Assembly: GCA_016124195.1 (NCBI GenBank) | Contig: WGOE01000008.1 | Coordinates: forward strand, 104,682-146,880 | Origin: a bacterium | Lineage (GTDB): Bacteria > Pseudomonadota > Alphaproteobacteria > Rhodobacterales > Rhodobacteraceae | Direction of reading: 5' to 3' | DNA length: 42,199 nt | In this document: piece after piece, positions 20,781 to 34,801 of the stretch | Numbering within the stretch: position 1 is the stretch's first letter | Layout: each line of letters starts with the position of its first letter | The notes under the pieces: model-generated | What the model was told of the DNA's origin: nothing | Databases searched by the model: none | Seen by the model: only the letters and a program-made list of their open reading frames with translations | Position numbers and translations under genes: made by a program

Positions 20781-21926
20781 TCAGATGCGCGCAATATCCA
20801 CCCAGCGTCGTTCGCGCGAGGATTGCATGCAGGCCTCGACGATCTGGCAGATGTGGTGGCCCACCTCGAAGGTCGGCCACATCGGCTGACCGGTGACGAC
20901 GGAACGGGCGACTTCCCAGGCTTCGATGATCTTGGTCTCGTTATAGCCCAGCGCGAAATTCGCCAAGGGCAGAAAGGCACTGTAATTCGGATTCTCGGGC
21001 CCGACGTCGATGGCCCTATAGCCGCGCCGGCCGGTGCGGTCGTCGTTGGTATAGAAATGCAGGCGGTTGATCTGGTCATAGTCGAAGACGAGGCTGCCCT
21101 TGGTGCCATAGACCTCATAGGCCTGATGGAACTTGCGCCCGGTGGCGACCCGGCTGAAATCGACGATGCCGGCAGCGCCATTCTCGAACCGGCAGAGCAT
21201 GTTGCTGGCGTCCGGGTTGGTCACCGCGGCCCAATCCTGCGATGCGGCGCCCTGCCCCTCGGCCACGGGGCGGCGCGGGGTGACGATCAGGTTGTCGGCG
21301 ATCAGCGACGAGACGCGGCCGACCAGAAACTCCATGAAGCTGAAGACATGGCTGCCGGTATCCCCGACGATGCCAGTCGGCGCCAGCGTGCCATCCGCCC
21401 GCCACATCATCGGGGCCAGGGGGTCGCCGAACACATCGACATGCTGGCAGCCCTTGAACAGGCGGATCTCGCCGATCTCGCCCGAGCGGATGATCTCGCG
21501 CGCCATGTCATGCACCGGGTTGCGCGGAAAGCCGTGGCCCACGCGGGTGATGACGCCCTTGGCCCGGGCGAGGTCGGCCAGTTCGCGGGCCTGCGCCGCC
21601 GTATCGGCCAGCGGCTTTTCGCAATAGACATGCTTGCCCGCCAGAAGCGCCGCCTTGGCCACCGGATAATGCAGGTTGTCGGGCAGGCAGATATCGACCA
21701 GATCGACATCCGGCGCCGTCACGACCTCTTGCCAGTCGCGCAGGATCCGCGCCCCCGGCGCACGCGCGGCCAGCGTGTCGGTGTCAGGGCTGGAGGACAC
21801 CAGAGCCACAATGCGGGCCCGCGCCTCGGCCACGCCGAAGAAATGCGGCAGGCTTTGCCAGGCCATGGTGTGAACCTTGCCCATCCACCCCGAGGCGCCC
21901 AGGACTGCGACTTTGACTTCGGACAT
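20781..21926 (-). CDS. Gfo/Idh/MocA-family NAD(P)-dependent sugar dehydrogenase
   Basis: A 381-residue oxidoreductase. The N-terminal Rossmann fold reads VKVAVLGASGWMGKVHTMAW. The family motif YCEKPLADT (E-K-P with catalytic Lys) comes near residue 98, and the second domain contains GDTGSHVFSFMEFLVGR, where D and H are the usual catalytic positions. Members oxidise inositols, sugars and amino sugars at a ring hydroxyl. It is the first gene of the flavoprotein-kinase unit, and its start lies about 30 bases downstream of the operator pair at 21956-21991. It probably performs the first or second oxidation of the imported sugar. Confidence 0.93.
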   Translation of the reverse strand: MSEVKVAVLGASGWMGKVHTMAWQSLPHFFGVAEARARIVALVSSSPDTDTLAARAPGARILRDWQEVVTAPDVDLVDICLPDNLHYPVAKAALLAGKHVYCEKPLADTAAQARELADLARAKGVITRVGHGFPRNPVHDMAREIIRSGEIGEIRLFKGCQHVDVFGDPLAPMMWRADGTLAPTGIVGDTGSHVFSFMEFLVGRVSSLIADNLIVTPRRPVAEGQGAASQDWAAVTNPDASNMLCRFENGAAGIVDFSRVATGRKFHQAYEVYGTKGSLVFDYDQINRLHFYTNDDRTGRRGYRAIDVGPENPNYSAFLPLANFALGYNETKIIEAWEVARSVVTGQPMWPTFEVGHHICQIVEACMQSSRERRWVDIARI

Positions 21927-22233: not shown

Positions 22234-22998
22234 TCAGGGCGAAACCATGGTGATGAAGTCCCTGACCAGCGTGTCAAAAAGATGCGGCTTTTCGAAATGC
22301 ACGTTATGGGCGGCATTCGGCACGACGGCGAGGTCGGCGCCCGGGATGCCGCGCCACAGGGTCTCGGGCTGCGACCAGGGGTAGGAGCGGTCCTTGCTGC
22401 CCCAAAGCACCAGCGTTCTTGTGCGGATGTGGGCCAGAGCGGGCCGGCCGTCCCAGGCCTCCCAGGCGTCAAGGCTGGCAAGCGCCGCTTGCAGACTGAC
22501 CTTGCGCCCAAGCGTCCGGCACAGGTCGAACTGCGCGGCCTTCTCGCCCTCCAGAAACCAGGTGGCGGCGATCCGGCTGGCCGTGTCGGCCATGCCCTCG
22601 TTCTGGAAACGGGCGCGCGATTGGGCGATGGTTTCGAACCGGCCCGGCAAGACGCCAAGCGGCCCGGTACCGTAAAGCACAAGGCTGCGCAGGCGGTCCG
22701 GGGCAAGCCGCGCCATTTCCTGCACAACCATGCCGCCCATCGAATGGCCCAAGAGGTCGAATTCGGCAATGCCGAGGTGATCCAGCAGGTCCAGCACATC
22801 CTTTGCATGCGCCTCGATCGTGGCTGGCGCGGTCAGCAGGGCGCTTTTGCCAAAGCCGGCGAGGTCGGGGCAGATCACGTCACGGCTGGACGCAAAGGCG
22901 GCGAGCTGCGCCGACCACATCGCACTGCCGCCCAGAAAGCCATGCACCAGCACCAACGCGGGCCCGCTGCCGCTTCGCGTATAGGACAAGATCGCCAT
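22234..22998 (-). CDS. Alpha/beta-fold hydrolase (enol-lactonase/esterase type)
   Basis: A 254-residue hydrolase. The ATG at 22998 is preferred to an upstream start because GGAAAGGTAAC precedes it and the fold begins at once (AILSYTRSGSGPALVLVHGF). The nucleophile Ser is in LLGHSMGGMV, the acid is likely Asp in LVLWGSKDRSYPW, and the catalytic His is in NAAHNVHFEKP. It resembles 3-oxoadipate enol-lactonases. It is the last gene of the sulfonate operon, 63 bases behind the HpsN-like gene. It might release a sulfonate from an ester or amide conjugate, but nothing in the sequence fixes the substrate. Confidence 0.9.
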   Translation of the reverse strand: MAILSYTRSGSGPALVLVHGFLGGSAMWSAQLAAFASSRDVICPDLAGFGKSALLTAPATIEAHAKDVLDLLDHLGIAEFDLLGHSMGGMVVQEMARLAPDRLRSLVLYGTGPLGVLPGRFETIAQSRARFQNEGMADTASRIAATWFLEGEKAAQFDLCRTLGRKVSLQAALASLDAWEAWDGRPALAHIRTRTLVLWGSKDRSYPWSQPETLWRGIPGADLAVVPNAAHNVHFEKPHLFDTLVRDFITMVSP

Positions 22999-23061
22999 TC
23001 TGGCTGTTACCTTTCCGCAAGGCATGGTCCTGACCCGACGGGGTCAGGGCCGCCGGTCCTG

Positions 23062-24369
23062 TCACGTCTGCGCATCGGCGCGCAGATCAAAGCTGTCGTT
23101 GGGGAAGAACTTTGCCAGCCGGATGTCGGCAGAGCGCGCGTGCCCCTCCATCCCCTCCAGCCGCGAGATGCGGGCGGTGGCCTCGGCCAGCGGGCGCGCG
23201 GCGGCCCGGGTCGCGCGTTGCCAGGTCACGGTCTTCATGAACTTGTGCACCGAAAGGCCGCCGGTATAGCGCGCCGCCCCCGAGGTCGGCAGAACATGGT
23301 TCGGACCCGAGGTCTTGTCGCCAAAGGCAACGGTGGTCTCTTCGCCCAGAAACAGCGAGCCGTAAGAGCTGAGCCGGTTCAGCCACCAGTCCAGACCCTG
23401 CGCCTGAACGTGCAGATGTTCGGGGGCGAAGCGGTCGGCGACCTGCGCCATCTCTTCGGCATCGGTGCACAGGATGACCTCGGCGAAATCGGCCCAGGCG
23501 GCGGTTGCGCTGGTGCGGTTGACCTCGGGCAGCGCGGCGATCAGTTCGGGCACCCGGGCCATCACCCGGCCGGCCAGCGCCTCGTCGGTCGTGACAAGCC
23601 AGACCGGAGAATTATAGCCATGCTCGGCCTGCCCGACGAGGTCGACCGCAACGAGTTCGGCGTCGGCAGTGGAGTCGGCCACGACCATGCTGTCGGTCGG
23701 GCCGGCGAACATGTCGATGCCGACCTGCCCGTAAAGGATGCGCTTGGCCTCGGCCACATACTGGTTGCCGGGGCCGACGAGGATATCCGCCTTAGGCACG
23801 CCGAACAGACCATTCGCAATCGCGGCGACCCCCTGAACCCCGCCGAGGTTCAGGATGACATCGGCGCCGCACAGATCCATCGTGTAAAGGATCGACGGAG
23901 GAATGCCGATCCCCGGGCGCGGCGGCGAACATGCCGTGATATGGGGAACGCCTGCGACCTTGGCCGTGGTGATCGTCATGATGGCGCTGGCCACATGGCT
24001 GTAGCGCCCGCCCGGCACGTAGCAGCCAGCCGCCGAAATCGGAATCTGCCTTTGCCCGGCCATCAGGCCCGGCAGGATCTCGACCGAGAAATCGGTGGCC
24101 GAGGCGCGCTGTGCCTCGGCAAAACGGCGCACGTTGTCATGGGCAAAGCGGATGTCGGCCTTCAGCTTTTCGGGCACCTGGGCCGCCGCGGCCCGGCGCG
24201 CCGCGTCGGAAACGACGATTTCGCCATCCCAGCGGTCCAGGTCGACCGCGAACTTGCGCGCGGCGGCCTCGCCCCCCATGGCGATCTCGTCCAGCATCTT
24301 TTCGACCGCGGCCCGCACGTCACTGTGGCCGGTTTCTGCGGTCCGACCGGCTTTCTTCAGGTAAATCAT
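23062..24369 (-). CDS. hpsN: HpsN/histidinol-dehydrogenase-like NAD-dependent dehydrogenase for a sulfonated alcohol
   Basis: A 435-residue member of the histidinol dehydrogenase fold, closest in my recollection to sulfopropanediol dehydrogenase HpsN. Such enzymes oxidise a primary alcohol to a carboxylate in two NAD-dependent steps. Zinc ligands match the family: Q247 and H250 in VGQAEHG, D351 in FGDKTSGPNH, H375 in LSVHKFMK. The catalytic pair is E317-H318 in APEHLHV. The ATG at 24369 is preferred over an in-frame start 19 codons upstream because the fold begins MIYLKKAGRT. It stands directly behind the tauC-type gene in an operon with cuyA and a racemase but without suyAB or hpsOP. That suggests an amino-alcohol sulfonate (cysteinolate to cysteate) rather than dihydroxypropanesulfonate. 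The substrate is inference. Confidence 0.85.
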   Translation of the reverse strand: MIYLKKAGRTAETGHSDVRAAVEKMLDEIAMGGEAAARKFAVDLDRWDGEIVVSDAARRAAAAQVPEKLKADIRFAHDNVRRFAEAQRASATDFSVEILPGLMAGQRQIPISAAGCYVPGGRYSHVASAIMTITTAKVAGVPHITACSPPRPGIGIPPSILYTMDLCGADVILNLGGVQGVAAIANGLFGVPKADILVGPGNQYVAEAKRILYGQVGIDMFAGPTDSMVVADSTADAELVAVDLVGQAEHGYNSPVWLVTTDEALAGRVMARVPELIAALPEVNRTSATAAWADFAEVILCTDAEEMAQVADRFAPEHLHVQAQGLDWWLNRLSSYGSLFLGEETTVAFGDKTSGPNHVLPTSGAARYTGGLSVHKFMKTVTWQRATRAAARPLAEATARISRLEGMEGHARSADIRLAKFFPNDSFDLRADAQT

Positions 24370-24385
24370 GGGTTTGGCTTTCAGG

Positions 24386-25252
24386 TTACATTCTGCCCTT
24401 CCAGGGCACGACGCGCCGCTCGACAAAGCGCATCAAAAGGTCGAAGGCGAAGGCGATGATGGCGATGACGAAAATGCCCATGATCACGACGGGGGTCTGC
24501 AGGAACTGGCTCGCCGACAGGACCATATAGCCAAGCCCCTTGGTTGCCGCGACCATTTCGGCGGCGACCAGCGTCGTCCAGCCAAAGCCGATGCCGACCC
24601 GCATGGCGGTCAGGATCTCGGGCATGGCGGAAGGCATGATGACAAAGCGCAAGACCTGCCAGCGCGTCGCACCAAAGGAATAGGCCGCGTGGATCTGTTC
24701 GATGGCGGCCGATTTGACGCCCGACCGCGCCCCAAGCACGATCGGCGCAAAGACCGACAGGAAGATCAGCAGCACTTTCGACGTCTCGCCGATGCCGAAC
24801 CAGATAATCATCAGGGGCAGATAGGCCAAGGGCGGAATGGGGCGGTAAAACTCGATCGGCGGGTCGAAAAGACCGCGCATCACCGGGCTCATCCCCATGG
24901 CAAGGCCAAGCGGCAGGCCGATCACGCAAGCCAGAAGGAAGGCGCCGAACACCCGCACCGTCGATATCATCAGATGCGACAGGAAGGGCGTGCCGGTGAA
25001 CCCCTCGTTCCAGACCGCAAAGAATTTGGTCACGATCGTCATCGGCGCTGGCACGAACAGGGGCTTGACCCAGCCCATGGCGGTGACCAGCCACCAGACG
25101 GCGAAGAACAGCGCGATGGAAAATGCCGAAAGCCACAGCGTGTTGCCCTGACCGGGCACGCCATAGATCTCACCCGGTTTGGTGGGGCGGGCCCGCGACA
25201 GGCGCGCGATCAGGCCGGCTTGCGGGCGCGGCGACGGAGTGACTTGGGTCAT
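24386..25252 (-). CDS. tauC: Sulfonate/taurine-type ABC transporter permease
   Basis: A 288-residue permease of the TauC/SsuC/NrtB family. After a cytoplasmic N-terminus there are about six transmembrane helices (TLWLSAFSIALFFAVWWLV; VFGAFLLACVIGLPLGLAMG; LLIFLSVFAPIVLGARSGVK). The ATPase-contacting loop reads IHAAYSFGATRWQVLRFVIM and ends in PSAMPEI. The ATG overlaps the stop of the ATPase gene (ATGA). It works with the products of the two preceding genes to import the sulfonate. Confidence 0.92.
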   Translation of the reverse strand: MTQVTPSPRPQAGLIARLSRARPTKPGEIYGVPGQGNTLWLSAFSIALFFAVWWLVTAMGWVKPLFVPAPMTIVTKFFAVWNEGFTGTPFLSHLMISTVRVFGAFLLACVIGLPLGLAMGMSPVMRGLFDPPIEFYRPIPPLAYLPLMIIWFGIGETSKVLLIFLSVFAPIVLGARSGVKSAAIEQIHAAYSFGATRWQVLRFVIMPSAMPEILTAMRVGIGFGWTTLVAAEMVAATKGLGYMVLSASQFLQTPVVIMGIFVIAIIAFAFDLLMRFVERRVVPWKGRM

Positions 25253-26037
25253 GCGGAGGCCTCCTCGTCGGCAAAGATGATCTTCAGCACATCTTCGCGC
25301 AGGCGGATGAACTCTGGCGACGCCTTGACCTGGCGGGCGGGCATGCCGTCCAGATAGCGGCGCGAGAAGGGCAGGTCGAAGGTATGGGTGATCCGGCCTG
25401 GGCGCGGCGACATGACGACCAGCTTGGTGCCCATGAACAGCGCCTCTTCCACGCTGTGCGTGATGAAGAAGATGGATTTGTGGGTATCGCGCCAGATCCG
25501 CAGGATCAATTCCTGCGCCTTTTCCCGCGTCAGCGCATCCAGGGCGCCCAGCGGCTCGTCCATCAGCAGGATCTGCGGATCGCAGGTCAGGGCCCGGGCA
25601 ATGCCCACCCGTTGCTGCATCCCGCCCGACAGCTTGTAGACCGGCGCTTTCTGGAAGCCGTCCAGCCCCAGAAGGCCCACGAACTTGTTTGCCGTCTCAT
25701 AGCGCTGCGCCTTGTTGACACCCTGGATCTGCAGCCCGAAAGCCACGTTGTCCAGCACGTTGAGCCACGGGAGCAGCGCATGCTTTTGAAACACCACCGC
25801 CCGGTCGGCGCCCGGCCCCTCGACCCGATGACCGCCAAGGTTCAAGGTCCCGGTGCTGGGCGACAGGAACCCCGCGATCAGGTTGAGCAGCGTCGATTTC
25901 CCGCAGCCCGAAGCCCCAAGCGCCACGACGAATTCATCATCGTCGATGGTCAGGTTGATCTTGCTCAGGGCAGAAACCGGAGGGCGTCCGTCCGCCGCAG
26001 GAAAAACCACCGAGACATCATCGATTATCAGCCCCAT
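25249..26037 (-). CDS. tauB: Sulfonate/taurine-type ABC transporter ATPase
   Basis: A 262-residue ATPase of the TauB/SsuB family. Walker A is [13 protein letters not shown], the signature is LSGGMQQRVGIARAL, Walker B is ILLMDEPLGALD, and the switch His is in FITHSVEEALFMG. VFQKHALLPWLNVLDNVAFG is typical of this subfamily. It follows the binding-protein gene by 61 bases and overlaps the permease start. Confidence 0.94.
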   Translation of the reverse strand: MGLIIDDVSVVFPAADGRPPVSALSKINLTIDDDEFVVALGASGCGKSTLLNLIAGFLSPSTGTLNLGGHRVEGPGADRAVVFQKHALLPWLNVLDNVAFGLQIQGVNKAQRYETANKFVGLLGLDGFQKAPVYKLSGGMQQRVGIARALTCDPQILLMDEPLGALDALTREKAQELILRIWRDTHKSIFFITHSVEEALFMGTKLVVMSPRPGRITHTFDLPFSRRYLDGMPARQVKASPEFIRLREDVLKIIFADEEASA

Positions 26038-26098
26038 AGGCCGTCTCCCACATTGGCAGAGGGGTCTTGCCCGGAATTACCCGGGCAAGACATCGCAC

Positions 26099-27088
26099 TT
26101 ACTTGGAGGCGGCCTCGGCGTAGGAGGCGTTCACGAAGGCTTTGTAGTCGTCCTTGACCGCATCGATCCGGCCCGCGCCCTTGAGGAAATCGGCCGTGGC
26201 CTTGATCGTGGCCGGGGCACCGCCCAGCCAGGTCGCGGTGATCTGGGTCGACATCGGCAGGAAGGTGAACCCGCTGAGGATGTCCGGCACCTGGGCCGGG
26301 TCGGCACCTGTGGCCTTGGCAAGGGCCTTGGCCTCGGCGCTGTCGGCCGTCCAGGCCTTCGGGTCCTTCAGATACATGCCGTTGACCTTGTCCACAGCCT
26401 TGAGGAAGGTCACGATCTTGTCCTTGTTCGCTTCGCCGAACTTGGTGTTGACCACCCAGCCGTCAAAGGTGGGATAACCCCACTCGGCGGTCTGGTCGGC
26501 ACCCACGATCAGCTTGCCGGACTTCAGGATTTCGGATTGCACCGGCTGCCAGATCCAGGCCGCGTCGATCACGCCCTGATCCCACGAGGCCGCGATCTGG
26601 TCGGGCTTCATGCTCATGATCGTGACATCGCCTTCCGAGATGCCTTCGTGCTTGAGGGCCCCCATCAGCGAGAAATGCGCCGTCGATCCGACCGGCACCG
26701 CGATGCGCTTGCCCTTGAGGTCGGACACCTTCTCGATGCCCGACCCGTTGTGGGCGATCAGGGACTCGGCCTTGCCGATCACGTCCGAAAAAGCAATCAA
26801 CTGCAGGTCAACCCCCTGGCTGGCCGCGATCGCCAGAGGCGAGGAGCCCAGTTCAGACAGCACCACGTCGCCCGAGGCCATGGCCGCGATGACATCGGTG
26901 CCGGAATCGAACTTGCGCCATTCGATGTCCCAGCCGGTGGCCTTTTCCAGGTCTTTGGTGGTCGACAAAAGCTGCATCGGGGTCGGGTTGCCGAAATGGC
27001 CGATGATGATCTTTTCGGCATTGGCAGCACCCGCGAACAGGGCAGAGGCCGCCAGGCCGATGACGAGACGCTTGAGATTGAGTTTCAT
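26099..27088 (-). CDS. tauA: TauA-like sulfonate-binding periplasmic protein
   Basis: A 329-residue binding protein with signal peptide MKLNLKRLVIGLAASALFAG and cleavage near ANA-EK. The mature start IIIGHFGNPTPMQLL and the segments ELGSSPLAIAASQGVDLQLI and WQPVQSEI match TauA of taurine importers. It lies between the racemase and the ATPase genes. The operon's enzymes act on cysteate-type sulfonates, so the ligand may be cysteate, cysteinolate or a relative instead of taurine. No taurine dioxygenase or taurine dehydrogenase is nearby. Confidence 0.9.
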   Translation of the reverse strand: MKLNLKRLVIGLAASALFAGAANAEKIIIGHFGNPTPMQLLSTTKDLEKATGWDIEWRKFDSGTDVIAAMASGDVVLSELGSSPLAIAASQGVDLQLIAFSDVIGKAESLIAHNGSGIEKVSDLKGKRIAVPVGSTAHFSLMGALKHEGISEGDVTIMSMKPDQIAASWDQGVIDAAWIWQPVQSEILKSGKLIVGADQTAEWGYPTFDGWVVNTKFGEANKDKIVTFLKAVDKVNGMYLKDPKAWTADSAEAKALAKATGADPAQVPDILSGFTFLPMSTQITATWLGGAPATIKATADFLKGAGRIDAVKDDYKAFVNASYAEAASK

Positions 27089-27126
27089 GGGTCGGTCGCT
27101 CCTTGTTGTGTCATGTCTTCTTGTTG

Positions 27127-27843
27127 TTATTTTTCCGCCAGTTCTGGTCTGGCGTTTTCGTCCAAGGCAAATGCCTTGATAGCGTCTACGAGCCGATCGA
27201 GCGTGTCAAAGGCTACGGCCTCTTTTGCCACGGAATCTGCGATCAGGGAAAATTCTGTACAGGAAATCATCTGGACACTCGCGCCACGCGCGAAAAGATC
27301 ATCTGATGCCTGCCGCAGCGCCTGCCGTGCGCCGGGTTGCGCGCCCTCGGCCTTGATCTGCCGGATCGCGGCCAGCATCGCGGGCTCGTCGGCGGCATAA
27401 AGCCCGGTCAGCCCGTGCCGCGCCAGGGCCGCATCGAACAGGCCGACCTTGCGGATGGCGGGCGAGCCGATGATTCCGATCACCCGGTTCGGCCCGGCCA
27501 ACCGCGCCGCATGGGCAACCGAAAGCTCGACCATGTCAAGAAATGGCACCGCCACCGCAGCACGAATCGCGGGGGCGTAATGATGGGCGGTGTTGCAGGG
27601 CATCGCCAGCGCCTCGGCCCCGGCGCCGACCAGACGGCGTGCCATCGCAGCCAGCACGGGGCCCGGGTCTTCGCCTGTACCCTCGATCAGATGGCGAATG
27701 CGCGAGGGCACCTGCGGGTTCTGATCGACGATCAGCGGAATATGGTCGGCGTCATCGCGGGCCGGCACGGCATCCAGCACCTTTTGCAGGATCAGAATAG
27801 TGGCCTGCGGCCCCATGCCGCCCAGAATTCCGACCCGCCGCAT
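27127..27843 (-). CDS. Aspartate/glutamate-racemase-family protein, possible cysteate racemase
   Basis: A 238-residue PLP-independent racemase. Both catalytic cysteines are present: C83 in AMPCNTAHHY and C195 in MISCTEFSL. The N-terminus RRVGILGGMGPQAT is typical. The ATG at 27843 is chosen over an adjoining GTG, with GGGAGGGG seven bases ahead. Its place between cuyA and the sulfonate importer suggests that the substrate is cysteate, the sulfonate analogue of aspartate. It would convert the D form into the L form used by CuyA. That role is inference; an aspartate racemase role would not explain the context. Confidence 0.85.
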   Translation of the reverse strand: MRRVGILGGMGPQATILILQKVLDAVPARDDADHIPLIVDQNPQVPSRIRHLIEGTGEDPGPVLAAMARRLVGAGAEALAMPCNTAHHYAPAIRAAVAVPFLDMVELSVAHAARLAGPNRVIGIIGSPAIRKVGLFDAALARHGLTGLYAADEPAMLAAIRQIKAEGAQPGARQALRQASDDLFARGASVQMISCTEFSLIADSVAKEAVAFDTLDRLVDAIKAFALDENARPELAEK

Positions 27844-27924
27844 CACGCGACCCCTCCCGATCCGGTGACAGGCACCTCGGGCATTCTGGTCCAGCGATGT
27901 GGGCTGCGCCGTGCGTCCATCTGA

Positions 27925-28947
27925 TTATTGGGCGGCCACGGGGGCTGCGTCACCCGTCAGGACATGGTCATAGCCGAACAGCGCCGCCGAACCGCCAGTG
28001 TGCAGGAAGACCACGCGCTCTCCCTTCTTGAAGCGACCCTTGCGGCAATAGTCGATCAGGCCGGCCGCGCCCTTGCCGGAGTAGACCGGGTCAAGCAGGA
28101 TGCCTTCCAGTTCGGCGAACATGCGGATTGCTTCAATCGTGTCGGCGCGGGGGATGCCATAGCCCGGCCCGACATAGCTCGAATCGGCCACGACATCGCC
28201 ACGCGCAACCACATCCGGGCAGCCCAGCTTTGCCGCGGTCAGTTGCGCCAGCTTGAAGACGTTTTCCTCTTGCTTTTCCTTGGGGGCCCGGACGCCGATT
28301 CCCAACAGCGGGATGCCCGCGTTGATCGCCTTCAACCCGGTGATCAGGCCGGCCTGCGTGCCCGCGCTGCCGGTGGCCGTGACCAGATGGTCGATGACCA
28401 AAGCCCGGTCATTGGCCTGCGACACCAGTTCAAAGGCGCAGTTCACATAACCCAGCGCACCAGTGGCATTCGACCCGCCGCCCGGAATGACATAGACCTT
28501 GCGCCCCTCGCTGCGCAGCTTTTCGGCAACCGTCTCCATTTCGGCCTGCATGTCCATGCCGCCTGCACGTTTGGAGGTGCTGGCGCCATGCAGATGATCC
28601 AGCAAGACATTGCCGTTGTTGTTGTAATTGGAGTCGTTCGACCCGGTGCGATCTTCCAGCAGCAAGTGGCAAGCCATGCCAAGCTTGGCCGCAAAGGCCG
28701 CCGTCTGGCGCGCATGGTTGGACTGGGTGGCGCCCTGCGTCATCACCGTGTCGGCGCCCATGGCCTGCGCTTCGGCCATCAGGAATTCCAGCTTGCGCGT
28801 CTTGTTTCCGCCGGTCGAAAGCCCGGTGCAATCGTCCCGCTTGATCCAGATTTCCGGCCCGCCCAATTCTTTCGACAGCCGGTCCAGCTTTTCCAGAGGT
28901 GTGGGCAGATGGGCGAGAAAGACACGAGGAAAACGAGCGAGGTGCAT
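27925..28947 (-). CDS. cuyA: L-cysteate sulfo-lyase CuyA
   Basis: A 340-residue PLP enzyme of the ACC deaminase/D-cysteine desulfhydrase family. CuyA splits L-cysteate into pyruvate, ammonium and sulfite. The PLP lysine is K49 in [14 protein letters not shown], and the substrate-binding Ser-Asn-His is at 76-78 in [11 protein letters not shown]. The start [21 protein letters not shown] is as I recall it for CuyA of roseobacters. D-cysteine desulfhydrase is the main alternative, but the TauABC-type importer, the HpsN-like enzyme and the divergent LysR gene favour CuyA. It is the first gene of the operon, so its promoter is in the 109-base gap shared with the LysR gene. Confidence 0.85.
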
Positions 28948-29056: not shown

Positions 29057-30004
29057 ATGCGGCTGGAGTGGCTTGAAGACATCCTTGCGGTGGCCCAAAC
29101 CGGTTCCTTCAGCGAAGCCGCCGAACGGCGCAACCTGACCCAGTCCGCCTTTTCGCGCCGCATTCAGCACATCGAGGATCAGGTCGGCGCACCCCTGTTC
29201 GACCGCACCCGCAAGCCGGTGCAGCTGCTCAAGCACACTCAGGCGCAAAGCGAACAGATAGCGCTGCTGGCCCGGCTGTTGCGCCAGCTTGGTGCCGATC
29301 TGCGCCGGGGCGACCGGATGTCCGAGAACACGCTGGTCATCTCGAGCCAGCACTCGCTGACCACCAGCCTGACGCCCTCGATCATCAAGGACATCAACCG
29401 TCACCACAGCGACATCTTCATCCGGCTGCGGTCGGCCAATCTGGCGGATTGCTTTGCCCAGCTTCTGTCGCGGCAAGCCGATATCCTCATCGTCTACCGC
29501 CTGCCCGAGACCGAACATCCGATCCTCGGGGCCTATATCGAAAGCAACACGATCGGGCTGGAACGCCTTGTCCCGGTCATTGCGCCCGCCGCCGTGGCCG
29601 GGCTGCAGGCCAGCCGGGATCGGGGCGAGATGCCCTATGTCGCCTACCCGGCCGATGTGTTTCTGGGCCAGGTGCTGGAACGCAAGATCCTGCCCCGACT
29701 GCGCAGCACGATCGAGGCCGCGCCCCGCGCCGAAACCGCGCTGACGCTGGCCTCGATCGAGATGGCCACGATGGGCATAGGGGTGGCCTGGGTGCCGGAA
29801 TCGCTCGCCCGCGACCGCATCGCGGCGGGAAATCTGACCGATCTGTCGGACGACCTGCCCAGTTGCGCGCTTGAGGTGACGGCGGTCCGGCTGATCGGCA
29901 AACCCGGCCGGGCCGAAGTCGCCGTGTGGGAGAGGTTGCGGCATTACCAGCATCCCGGCACCCCACGGCCGGACGTGCCCGCACCTGACCCTGCCAAGCG
30001 GTGA
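29057..30004 (+). CDS. LysR-family regulator of the sulfonate operon
   Basis: A 315-residue regulator. The N-terminal helix-turn-helix reads MRLEWLEDILAVAQTGSFSE, then AAERRNLTQSAFSRRIQHIE, followed by GAPLFDRTRKPV. The effector domain begins near residue 90 (TLVISSQHSLTTSLTPSIIK). It is transcribed away from cuyA with a 109-base gap, the usual arrangement for a LysR activator and its target operon. The co-inducer is probably the sulfonate or a pathway intermediate. It ends 57 bases before the stop of nsrR, with a shared hairpin between them. Confidence 0.93.
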   Translation: MRLEWLEDILAVAQTGSFSEAAERRNLTQSAFSRRIQHIEDQVGAPLFDRTRKPVQLLKHTQAQSEQIALLARLLRQLGADLRRGDRMSENTLVISSQHSLTTSLTPSIIKDINRHHSDIFIRLRSANLADCFAQLLSRQADILIVYRLPETEHPILGAYIESNTIGLERLVPVIAPAAVAGLQASRDRGEMPYVAYPADVFLGQVLERKILPRLRSTIEAAPRAETALTLASIEMATMGIGVAWVPESLARDRIAAGNLTDLSDDLPSCALEVTAVRLIGKPGRAEVAVWERLRHYQHPGTPRPDVPAPDPAKR

Positions 30005-30641: not shown

Positions 30642-30675
30642 GGGGCACGGCAATTTGATCGGGCATAGCTGGCCC

Positions 30676-32880
30676 ATGACACATTCTATGCGCTCCTTCC
30701 TGATCCGCCTGGTGCTTGGCCTTGTCGCCGCACTGGTTCTGTCCTTGCCCGGCCGGGCTGACACTGTCCTGTCGAAATTCCTGCCGACGATCCAGGCGCC
30801 CGACCTTGTGGCCGGGGCCGAAGGCTTCGGGCCGATCCGACAGGATCTGGCGGTGGCGCCGGTGCTCAAGGGCGGCCAGACGATCGGCTGGGTCTTCGTG
30901 ACCTCGGATTTCGTGGGCACCACGGGATATTCGGGCAAGCCGATCCACACGATGGTCGCCGTGGGGCTGGACGGCAAGATCATCGGCGTCAAGCTGGTCA
31001 AACACTCCGAACCCATTGTTCTGGTGGGCATTCCCGATGCCAAGATCAAGGCGCTTGCGGCCAGCTATGTCGGGCTGGATCTGGTCGCGATGGCCAAGTC
31101 GGGTGGCAAGCACGATCTGAACATCATCTCGGGTGCCACGGTGACGGTCATGGTGGTGGACGATTCCATCCTGCGCTCCGGCCTCAAGGTGGCACGGGCG
31201 CTGGGTCTGGGCGGGCTTGCGCCGGAAGTGGCCGCCGGCCCCACGGTCGAGATCGACCCCGCGGCCAAGGCCCCCGCCGACTGGACCGCGATGGAGGGCG
31301 ACGGCACCCTGCGCCGCCTGTCCCTTGATGTGGGCCAGGTGAATGAGGCCTTCGCCGCCCTGAACGACCCGCGCGCCACGGCCAAGCCCCTGACCGACCC
31401 GCCGGACAGCACCTTCGTCGAGATGCAGGTGGCGCTGGTTTCGGTGCCGGCCATCGGTCAGGCCCTGTTGAGCGCCGCGGATCAGGCCAACCTGCAGGCC
31501 TGGCTGCAGCCGGGCGATCAGGCCCTGATGATCGTGGGCAAGGGCATCTATTCCTTCAAGGGCTCGGGCTATGTGCGCGGCGGCATCTTCGACCGGATCG
31601 TGCTGGTGCAGGATGACGTGTCGGTCCGCTTCCATGACCGCGACCACAAGCGGCTGGGCGCGATCAGCGCCAAGGGCGCCCCCGATTTCTCCGAGACCGA
31701 TCTGTTCCGCATCCCGGCCGCCAGCGGGTTCGACCCGCTCAAGCCGTTCCGCATCCAGCTTCTGGTGCAACGGCAGGTCGCGGCGATCGAGAAGGACTTC
31801 ATCACGTTCGATCTGGGCTACCAACTGCCGCCGCGCTATCTGCGCAAGATCGCAGCCCCCGTGGTGGCCGCAGCCCCGGTGCCGGATGAGACAACCGCCC
31901 AATCGGCGCTGTGGCAAAAGATCTGGATCGGCAAGAAGGTCGAGATCGCCGTCCTTGTCACCATGCTGGCCGTGCTGACGCTGGTCTTCTTCTTCCAGAG
32001 CCTCGCCACCCGCAATGCGCGCCTGTTCTACTGGTTCCGCATCGGCTTCTTGACCGTCACGCTGGTGTTCCTGGGCTGGTATGCCGATGCGCAACTGTCG
32101 GTCGTCAACCTTATGGCGCTGTTCGGCGCGCTGGTGAACGGCTTCAGCTGGCAGGCCTTTCTGTTGGACCCGCTGACCTTCATCCTGTGGTTCTCGGTCG
32201 CGGCGGCGCTGTTGTTCTGGGGCCGGGGCGCTTATTGCGGCTGGCTCTGCCCCTTCGGCGCCCTGCAAGAGCTGACCAACCAGATTGCCCGCGCCTTGCA
32301 CATCCCGCAGTGGACATTGCCCTGGGGGCTGCACGAACGGCTCTGGCCCTTGAAATACATGATCTTCCTTGGCCTTTTCGGCGTGTCGCTGATGTCGATC
32401 GACCAGGCCGAACACTATGCCGAGATCGAGCCCTTCAAGACCGCGATCGTCCTGAAATTCGTGCGCGCCTGGCCCTTCGTGGCCTATGTGGCGGCGCTTT
32501 TGATGGCGGGCCTGTTCGTGGAGCGTTTCTACTGCCGCTATCTCTGCCCGCTGGGCGCGGCGCTGGCGATCCCGGCGCGCCTGCGGATGTTCGACTGGCT
32601 CAAGCGCTATCACGAATGCGGCCAGCCCTGCCAGACCTGCGCCAATGAATGCCCGGTTCAAGCCATCCATCCCACGGGCGAGATCAACCCGAACGAATGC
32701 GTGAACTGCCTGAATTGTCAGGTGCTTTACCAAAGCAAGACCAAGTGCCCCGTCGTCATTCGCCAGATCAAGCGGCGCGGCGCGGTCGGCCATGTCGAGG
32801 CGCCTCTGCGGATGCCCCAGCTTCGGGATCCGGGCGACCTCATCAACCATCCCAATGTGAAAGGACCGAAAAATGTCTGA
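30676..32880 (+). CDS. nosR: NosR, membrane flavo-iron-sulfur protein for nitrous oxide reduction
   Basis: A 734-residue protein needed for expression and electron supply of NosZ. A signal/TM segment ([20 protein letters not shown]) leads into a periplasmic FMN-binding domain (about 70-180, including [16 protein letters not shown]). Further TM helices start near residue 430 ([19 protein letters not shown]). Two C-x-x-x-C-P motifs ([10 protein letters not shown] about 519, [10 protein letters not shown] about 620) and a polyferredoxin tail ([18 protein letters not shown]) follow. The ATG at 30676 is chosen; 30688 is possible. Its last 8 bases overlap nosZ. Length and architecture are complete. 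Confidence 0.96.
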
Positions 32881-34801
32881 TACTCGAAAGCCCGGATTGA
32901 GCCGGCGGGGACTTTTTGGCGCAACGGCCGGCGGGGCAGCCCTGCTGGGTGGCCTGGGCGGCTCGCGTCTGGCGCTGCTGGCGGGGGCGGCCGGCGTGAC
33001 CGCCGCCACCGCGGCCGACGCCGCAGCCACGGGGGCCGAAGTGCCGCCGGGCCAGCTGGACGATTACTATGGCTTCTGGTCCTCGGGCCAGACGGGCGAA
33101 CTGCGCATCTTCGGCGTGCCATCTATGCGCGAGATGATGCGCGTGCCGGTTTTCAACCGCTGCTCGGCCACCGGCTGGGGGCTGACCAACGAGTCGCTGA
33201 AAATCCTGACCCAGGACCAGACGCCCGAGAACAAGGCCTTCCTGGCCAAGCGCGGGCTCAAGGCCTTCCAGAACGGCGACCTGCACCACCCGCACATGTC
33301 CTTCACCGATGGCACCTATGACGGGCGCTATCTGTTCATGAACGACAAGGCCAACACCCGCGTCGCCCGCATCCGCTGCGACATCATGAAGCCGGACAAG
33401 ATCATCGACATCCCGAACGCCCATGACATCCACGGCCTGCGTCCGCAGAAATACCCGCGCACCGGCTATGTATTCTGCAACGGTGAACACGAGGCGCCGC
33501 TCGTCAACGACGGCAAGATCCTCGACGATCCCAAGCAATATGTGACGATCTTCACCGCGGTCGATGGCGACACGATGAAGGTGGCCTGGCAGGTCATCGT
33601 CGACGGCAACCTCGACAACGTCGATGCCGATTACCAGGGCAAATACGCGATCTCGTCCTGCTACAACTCGGAAATGGGCATGAACATCCCCGAGATGACG
33701 GCAAGCGAGACCGACTGGGCCGTGGTCTTCAACATCAAGCGCATCGAAGAGGGCGTGAAGGCCGGCGACTACAAGGAGATGAACGGGGTTCCGGTGCTGG
33801 ATGGCCGGCACGGGTCGAAATACACCCGCTATATTCCGGTCCCGAACAGCCCGCATGGCGTGAACACGGCGCCGGACGGAAAGTACGTGGTCGTCAACGG
33901 CAAGCTGTCACCGACCTGCACCGTGCTTGACCTGTCCAAGATCGACGAGATGTTCGAGAAGGACCTTGATCCGCGCTACGCCGTCGTGGCCGAGCCGGAA
34001 CTGGGCCTCGGCCCGCTGCATACGGCCTTTGACGGGAAGGGCAACGCCTTCACCACGCTGTTCCTCGACAGCCAGGTCGTCAAATGGGACATCGACAAGG
34101 CGATCCGCGCCTTTGCCGGCGAAAAGGTCGATCCGATCATCGCCAAGATCGACGTGGAATATCAGCCGGGCCACAACCACACCTCGATGGGCGAAACCAA
34201 GGAGGCCGATGGCAAGTGGCTGATCTCGCTCAACAAGTTCTCGAAAGACCGTTTCATCAACGTAGGCCCCCTCAAGCCCGAGAACGACCAGCTGATCGCC
34301 ATCTCGGACGGCAAGTTCGAAATCGTCCACGACGGCCCGACCTTCGCAGAACCGCATGACTGCATCATGGTGCGGCGCGACATCGTCAACCCGCTCAGCG
34401 TCTACAAGCGCGACGACCCGATGTGGGAAGACGCCCGCAAGATGGCCGAAGCCGATGGCGTCAAGCTGGAAGACGGTGCCGATCAGCCGATCCGCGATGG
34501 CAACAAGGTGCGGGTCTACATGTGGTCCTCGGCGCCGACCTTCAGCCTGGAAAAGTTCACGGTGAAAGAGGGCGACGAGGTGACGGTCACCATCACCAAT
34601 GTCGATGACGTTGATGACCTGACGCATGGCTTCACCATCTCGAACTACGGTGTGGCGATGGAGATCGGGCCGCAGGCCACCGCCTCGGTCACCTTCACCG
34701 CCGACCGGCCGGGCGTGCACTGGTTCTACTGCCAGTGGTTCTGCCACGCGCTGCACATGGAAATGCGCGGCCGCATGTTCGTCGAACCGAAGGCGATCTG
34801 A
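32873..34801 (+). CDS. nosZ: Nitrous oxide reductase NosZ (clade I, Tat-exported)
   Basis: A 642-residue periplasmic multicopper enzyme that reduces N2O to N2. The twin-arginine signal is [13 protein letters not shown] (R11, R12) and cleavage comes near residue 50. CuZ histidines lie in the propeller (DLHHPHMSF near 136, [39 protein letters not shown]). The C-terminal cupredoxin carries CuA with [20 protein letters not shown] (about 616-635), preceded by the ligand His in LTHGFTI. The Tat signal and the nosR-Z-D-F-Y-L-X order place it in clade I, typical of denitrifying alpha-, beta- and gammaproteobacteria. All visible copper ligands are intact. Confidence 0.98.

Follow-up and report, generated by a model that had tools for sequence, protein, structure and literature searches.

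A Rhodobacteraceae sulfonate operon joining an HpsN-type dehydrogenase to cysteate racemase and cysteate lyase: a proposed route for cysteinolate catabolism

The window analysed here, 42,199 nucleotides of contig WGOE01000008.1 (GCA_016124195.1, positions 104,682 to 146,880 of the forward strand) from a member of the Rhodobacteraceae whose assembly comprises 4.26 Mb in 18 contigs, carries a real and intact sulfonate operon. Seven intact open reading frames (ORFs) on the minus strand encode the lyase CuyA, the racemase CuyB, the three parts of a tauABC-type importer, an HpsN-type dehydrogenase and an alpha/beta hydrolase, with a LysR-type regulator gene diverging from them. Scores below are given against the curated cut-offs of NCBIfam models, those for CuyA and CuyB being equivalogs.

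29057..30004, plus strand: LysR-type regulator (Pfam HTH_1 and LysR_substrate), divergent, 109 bases from cuyA
27925..28947, minus strand: cuyA, D-cysteate sulfo-lyase (yielding pyruvate, ammonium and sulfite); NF052482, 553 bits, cut-off 450
27127..27846, minus strand: cuyB, cysteate racemase; NF052483, 280 bits, cut-off 190
26099..27088, minus strand: tauA-type sulfonate substrate-binding protein; TIGR01729, 309 bits, cut-off 304
25249..26037, minus strand: tauB-type ABC ATPase; NF008421, 340 bits, slightly below the cut-off of 357
24386..25252, minus strand: tauC-type permease; NF007545, 315 bits, slightly below the cut-off of 342
23062..24369, minus strand: HpsN-type dehydrogenase, proposed cysteinolate dehydrogenase; 613 bits versus 8wwe, GGRYSH motif
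22234..23025, minus strand: alpha/beta hydrolase; PF00561

The gene order given in an earlier sequence-only reading of the window is borne out, as the seven frames are intact and CuyA, CuyB and the TauA-type protein exceed their curated cut-offs. The nearest solved relative of the TauA-type protein is the taurine-binding protein 6ssy. For the dehydrogenase gene the coordinates 23062-24369 follow from an ATG start, and an in-frame TTG would lengthen it to 24426. Scans for promoters (3 versus 1.0 in shuffles) and terminators (6 versus 5.8) were both left unused.

Judged by its sequence, the dehydrogenase is an HpsN-type enzyme and not a histidinol dehydrogenase (HisD). It scores 613 bits against the Ruegeria pomeroyi (R)-dihydroxypropanesulfonate (DHPS) dehydrogenase 8wwe and 552 against CpHpsN, the HpsN of Cupriavidus pinatubonensis (8v35), versus at most 234 against solved HisD. 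Its residues 120-125 read GGRYSH and fit the G-R-Y-A/S-H motif, including the sulfonate-binding His, that is given as the HpsN hallmark in the available part of PMC11382572. Among the four HisD-family proteins of the window genome this motif is found solely in the window's enzyme, the others reading GGTASY, GGRFPL and GGKFPM, and the genome has a separate and better HisD (560 bits to PF00815). The catalytic residues, already taken to be intact, are so: CpHpsN H126, Q248, H251, E318, H319, D352, K353, H359 and H411 are all kept, the zinc and catalytic residues being Q247, H250, H410, E317, H318 and D351 in the numbering of the window enzyme. One listed position, S226, reads T, as it does in 41 of the 42 HpsO/P-linked relatives described below.

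Two of the other HisD-family proteins, those with GGRFPL and GGKFPM, are paralogues encoded by a divergently oriented gene pair elsewhere (L005 13418-16282; G000:C13, about 331.4-334.3 kb), and are neither HisD- nor HpsN-like. By eye, their neighbours are an ABC importer and an amidase, with an SDR-like gene adjoining.

We compared the neighbourhoods of 92 HpsN-type loci, namely the window, the best 80 of a genome-contig scan (at least 68% identity, up to 10 kb on each side, several on short contigs) and 11 plasmid regions, these being the ones with an HpsN-type gene among 12 hand-picked annotated regions. Thirty-one loci are CuyA-linked, 42 HpsO/P-linked, none both, one comDE-only and 18 other; among the best 80 scan loci the corresponding figures are 24, 37, one comDE-only and 18. 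These labels rest on CuyA and HpsO/P, so that counts of those genes are circular, and relatedness between loci is ignored. CuyB is present in 31/31 CuyA-linked loci versus 0/42 HpsO/P-linked ones, a LysR homologue (at least 42% identity, the window's own row entered by hand) in 24/31 versus 0/42, and a window-type TauC in 19/31 versus 0/42; the window-type tauABC as a whole is found in no HpsO/P-linked locus. The reverse holds for the hps-type TRAP transporter (0/31 versus 24/42), LacI (0/31 versus 33/42) and SuyB (0/31 versus 21/42), and within the stretches examined the 31 CuyA-linked loci gave no match to hpsO, hpsP, suyB or comE. A DegT aminotransferase is found in 13 CuyA-linked loci and in none of the 42 others, and a homologue of the alpha/beta hydrolase (at least 50% identity) in seven CuyA-linked loci, the window included. 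All neighbours were counted at set identity limits, so other kinds of transporter escape the count: the CuyA-linked locus L095 has an annotated TRAP transporter, and a gene for a taurine-type binding protein lies at the edge of the HpsO/P-linked L096. In L033, one of the "other" loci, the contig starts at an aminotransferase gene and includes CuyB and tauABC. Paracoccus seriniphilus carries both arrangements, a TRAP-hpsN-hpsO-hpsP-suyAB-type locus and a cuyA-aminotransferase-cuyB-hpsN locus.

HpsN-type genes also occur in further settings, seen here and in a set of 19 hand-picked stretches. In L050, L062, L076, L078 and L136 the gene lies beside a taurine-type tauABC and xsc, with no cuyA or hpsOP matches, and the first four also have a tpa-like gene. 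In seven hand-picked stretches (L120-L126) a LysR gene diverges from the HpsN-type gene and neither cuy nor hps genes were matched, a lepA-like gene being recognisable by eye nearby in L120, L123 and L125. The same kind of LysR-HpsN pair occurs in L130 and L134 with cuyA and cuyB adjoining, and in L137 and L070 the HpsN-type gene adjoins comDE, with no hpsO or hpsP matches.

The separation of the two contexts was also seen in a survey of 246 genomes of the window's family (HpsN-type cut-off E 1e-140, linkage within 12 kb). It gave 142 HpsN-type copies in 127 genomes, 78 of them HpsP-linked, 20 CuyA-linked, none both and 44 neither. HpsP had no match in 18 of the 20 genomes that carry a CuyA-linked copy, and G128 and G172 carry both CuyA-linked and HpsP-linked copies. 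Forty-five genomes have CuyB, at 47 places in all: both CuyA and HpsN are nearby at 19, CuyA only at 18, HpsN only at three and neither at seven. The HpsN copies near CuyB number 22, and not one of them is HpsP-linked. Moreover, in G009 and G179 an intact cuyB adjoins an intact HpsN-type gene while cuyA lies elsewhere in the genome; in G179, cuyB-hpsN is on one contig and a LysR-cuyA-tauABC-hydrolase locus without HpsN on another. Such a pairing of racemase and dehydrogenase, apart from the lyase, would be expected of a dehydrogenase whose product is cysteate. In a tree of 95 rows (the 92 loci plus the window genome's other three HisD-family proteins), the window belongs to a supported group of 13 rows: 12 are CuyA-linked, and the remaining one is L008, whose contig begins just before the gene.

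The reactions of CuyA, CuyB and HpsN are known from the literature. The function that we consider fairly probable is an aminosulfonate catabolic operon taking cysteinolate through cysteate to pyruvate, ammonium and sulfite. TauABC would import cysteinolate, and probably cysteate too. Cysteinolate, most likely as its L (R) enantiomer, would be oxidised at its primary alcohol by the HpsN-type enzyme, in two NAD+-dependent steps with the aldehyde as intermediate and L-cysteate as product. The substrate's sulfonate and 2-amino group would sit on the zinc of the enzyme, just as the sulfonate and 2-hydroxyl of R-DHPS do in HpsN. CuyB would then racemise L- to D-cysteate, CuyA would eliminate sulfite from D-cysteate to leave pyruvate and ammonium, and the LysR protein probably regulates the operon. 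On chemical grounds, a CH2OH oxidation that ends in cysteate would begin with cysteinolate.

CuyA prefers D-cysteate (PMC11382572, in the part available; also the name of the NF052482 model), so CuyB supplies the D form from the L form, and the earlier proposal that the racemase makes the L form for CuyA had the step reversed. L-cysteinolate is an isostere of R-DHPS and matches L-histidinol, by Cahn-Ingold-Prelog reasoning; an HpsN-type enzyme should therefore yield L-cysteate, which CuyB must racemise for CuyA. As described in the same part of PMC11382572, CpHpsN holds R-sulfolactate and L-cysteate alike, a crystal structure with L-cysteate exists, and L-cysteate inhibits the enzyme with a half-maximal inhibitory concentration of 2.4 mM. 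As first put forward, the cysteinolate route has the support of the genomic context (CuyB at every CuyA-linked locus, no matches to hpsO, hpsP, suyB or comE there), its stereochemistry was wrong, and the substrate is assigned by context. The enantiomer, the imported compounds and the flux are likewise inferred.

Could the enzyme be an ordinary R-DHPS dehydrogenase, with unlinked genes taking sulfolactate through sulfopyruvate to cysteate and CuyB and CuyA finishing the route, as in the published "CuyA pathway"? A DHPS route via CuyA has been proposed for R. pomeroyi and Roseovarius nubinhibens (PMC11382572, in the part available), the active-site residues of the window enzyme equal those of HpsN, and SlcC, ComC and a cysteate aminotransferase, which were not searched for, may be in the genome. 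However, the same source defined the "CuyA pathway" on sequences with hpsO and hpsP nearby, and in the window genome no orthologue was found of HpsO (best match 42%), HpsP (none at E 1e-70, nine of the 40 first-look candidates having been scored) or ComE (best match 35%); a SlcD-like oxidase gave a best match of 36%, the query being a comDE-linked alpha-hydroxy acid oxidase for which the SlcD label is our own. Nor do the families assigned to the operon and neighbouring genes include hpsO or hpsP. The earlier statement that suyAB and hpsOP are missing holds in the genome for HpsO, HpsP and SuyB (best match 33%), SuyA not having been searched on its own. The CuyA-linked loci as a group also lack hpsO/P, the hps-type TRAP transporter and LacI, and CuyB pairs with HpsN apart from CuyA in two genomes. 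We therefore regard this explanation as unlikely. Xsc, present in the genome (931 bits), was considered as a completing step and rejected: its locus (L112 6370-13161; G000:C5) resembles one for taurine or aminoethylphosphonate use and includes a class III aminotransferase, a TIGR03364 oxidoreductase and a phosphonoacetaldehyde hydrolase, the last two suggesting joint use of both compounds.

Two further explanations were weighed. The operon might serve imported cysteate only, the HpsN-type enzyme being a bystander or acting on another amino alcohol or diol; CuyA and CuyB without HpsN at 18 of the 47 CuyB places, and the G179 LysR-cuyA-tauABC-hydrolase locus, fit such a function. But the linkage recurs with different importers, including tauABC of two kinds, a ProX/ProV-like ABC transporter (L029, L087) and the annotated TRAP transporter of L095, and the sulfonate-binding His is kept in all 31 CuyA-linked rows, which makes this possibility distinctly improbable. 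Alternatively, as a version of the cysteinolate reading and within its probability, D-cysteinolate would be oxidised directly to D-cysteate, with CuyB serving imported L-cysteate only. D-cysteinolic acid is the algal form commonly named (from a title only), and D-cysteate is the substrate that CuyA prefers (PMC11382572, available part). Against this, both HpsN enzymes studied are R-specific (PMC11382572, PMC11131964, available parts) and the residues are conserved, and CuyB adjoins HpsN apart from CuyA in two genomes; we find this version quite improbable.

Several observations weigh against oxidation of L-cysteinolate by the window enzyme. For the algal compound the customary name is D-cysteinolic acid (Ito 1963, by its title), with which a route through the L form, while it fits the operon, sits uneasily. 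As far as the available parts of the two papers go, CpHpsN prefers R-DHPS over S-DHPS about a million-fold with no L-histidinol activity detected (PMC11382572), and R. pomeroyi HpsN does act on L-histidinol, 691-fold less efficiently (PMC11131964). Both groups of loci keep the same residue at every catalytic, zinc and sulfonate position checked (the sulfonate-binding His in 31/31 and 42/42 rows) and the other contacts vary conservatively, so the sequence gives no sign of a switch from hydroxyl to amine. An assignment of the substrate from active-site residues, the catalytic positions being those of true HpsN, was consequently rejected, and as the residues fail to separate the groups we infer the substrate from gene context and not from them. 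Some positions do differ between the groups (321 H/T, 205 Y/F and 165 M/A, CpHpsN numbering), but where they lie relative to the substrate could not be read from the AlphaFold model, whose input alignment comprised 37 of the 92 HpsN-type rows, since its predicted local distance difference test score is below 50 at 215-223, 337-347 and 353-381. The top Foldseek match of this model is 9cp7, CpHpsN with bound L-cysteate, with a loose fit (root-mean-square deviation about 22 Å) and poor active-site loops.

The distribution of the genes adds to these reservations. CuyA-like matches number 75 in 71 genomes of the family and 55 of the 75 are not near an HpsN-type copy; together with the 18 CuyB places that have CuyA and no HpsN, this indicates that cysteate use needs no dehydrogenase. 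Similarly, the 44 of 142 HpsN-type copies in neither context imply that the family has further roles. A genome of the same genus, G071, gave no match to HpsN-type, CuyA or CuyB proteins at the limits applied. G210 (L142, about 3.3-5.8 kb), the third place with CuyB and HpsN only, is a decayed cuyA-cuyB-hpsN locus, in which CuyA and CuyB match in part and the HpsN-type frame is broken by two in-frame stops; it was not counted. Finally, the approximately unbiased test applied to the tree rejects a single origin for the whole set of 31 CuyA-linked rows (p-AU 0.0026), and does so less clearly without L095 (p-AU 0.052), the subsets having been chosen after the tree was seen. L095 sits on a long branch with L088, flagged by the tree tool, and several origins are not established, since the case depends on this one row.

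Cysteinolic acid is widespread in marine microalgae, where its cellular content can exceed that of dimethylsulfoniopropionate (PMC8703288, available part). No enzyme of its catabolism is described in the open-access literature searched, as far as the accessible texts go, subscription literature lying outside this search. The operon is probably a new pathway variant built from known enzyme families. A broader reading, possible though short of probable, is that an HpsN-type lineage is a dedicated cysteinolate dehydrogenase that became joined to CuyB and CuyA, perhaps repeatedly, and forms a self-contained pathway from cysteinolate to pyruvate in aquatic and soil Alphaproteobacteria as well as at least one Pseudomonas; where a DegT aminotransferase is present, as in 13 of the 31 loci, it may supply L-cysteinolate from 3-hydroxy-2-oxopropanesulfonate, which would tie D-cysteinolate or DHPS-like ketones to the route. 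That a DegT enzyme, from a family mostly of keto-sugar enzymes, supplies L-cysteinolate from the ketone is a guess. If cysteinolate is the substrate, the operon would account for a missing part of the aquatic sulfur cycle, an HpsN-type gene beside cuyB could serve as a marker for cysteinolate flux in genomes and metatranscriptomes, and HpsN homologues scored as DHPS dehydrogenases by bits in a Tara Oceans survey (PMC11131964, available part) may partly be something else.

The operon-type DegT aminotransferase was itself rejected as a genome-wide marker, because at least 203 of the 246 family genomes match it at E 1e-100, with identities mostly of 56-63% among the matches listed. The window genome's own copy (59%; L111 9419-11916, G000:C10) lies beside an MFS transporter gene.

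Other genes border the operon in the window. Downstream, at 20781-21926, is a Gfo/Idh/MocA oxidoreductase gene whose best match, levoglucosan dehydrogenase, scores 289 bits and so stays far below the cut-off of 650. Past the LysR gene, at 30655-34801, are genes for a NosR-like protein (below cut-off) and a nitrous-oxide reductase NosZ of the twin-arginine translocation type, and the following ORFs, up to about 39254, resemble more nos genes when judged by eye.

In comparison with known systems, cysteate degradation encoded on the R. pomeroyi megaplasmid shares the lyase CuyA with the window, but in a 19 kb stretch around that cuyA no racemase or HpsN is annotated or matched by tblastn. The "CuyA pathway" of DHPS shares HpsN, CuyA and the products pyruvate, ammonium and sulfite; according to the available part of PMC11382572 it runs via sulfolactate, sulfopyruvate and an aminotransferase, with hpsOP and SlcD, whereas the window genome has no close match to hpsO, hpsP or the SlcD-like oxidase. 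HisD resembles the window enzyme in its superfamily and in its four-electron chemistry on an amino alcohol, and differs in the bit scores given above and in the sulfonate-binding His of the window enzyme. The closest relative in kind is HpsN itself (C. pinatubonensis 8v35/9cp7, R. pomeroyi 8wwe), which shares the family, the GRY[AS]H motif and the zinc and catalytic residues, the window enzyme being 59.5% identical over 98% to a C. pinatubonensis HpsN. It is the partners that differ: hpsO, hpsP, suyAB or comDE, TRAP and LacI for HpsN, and cuyA, cuyB, tauABC and LysR for the enzyme of the window.

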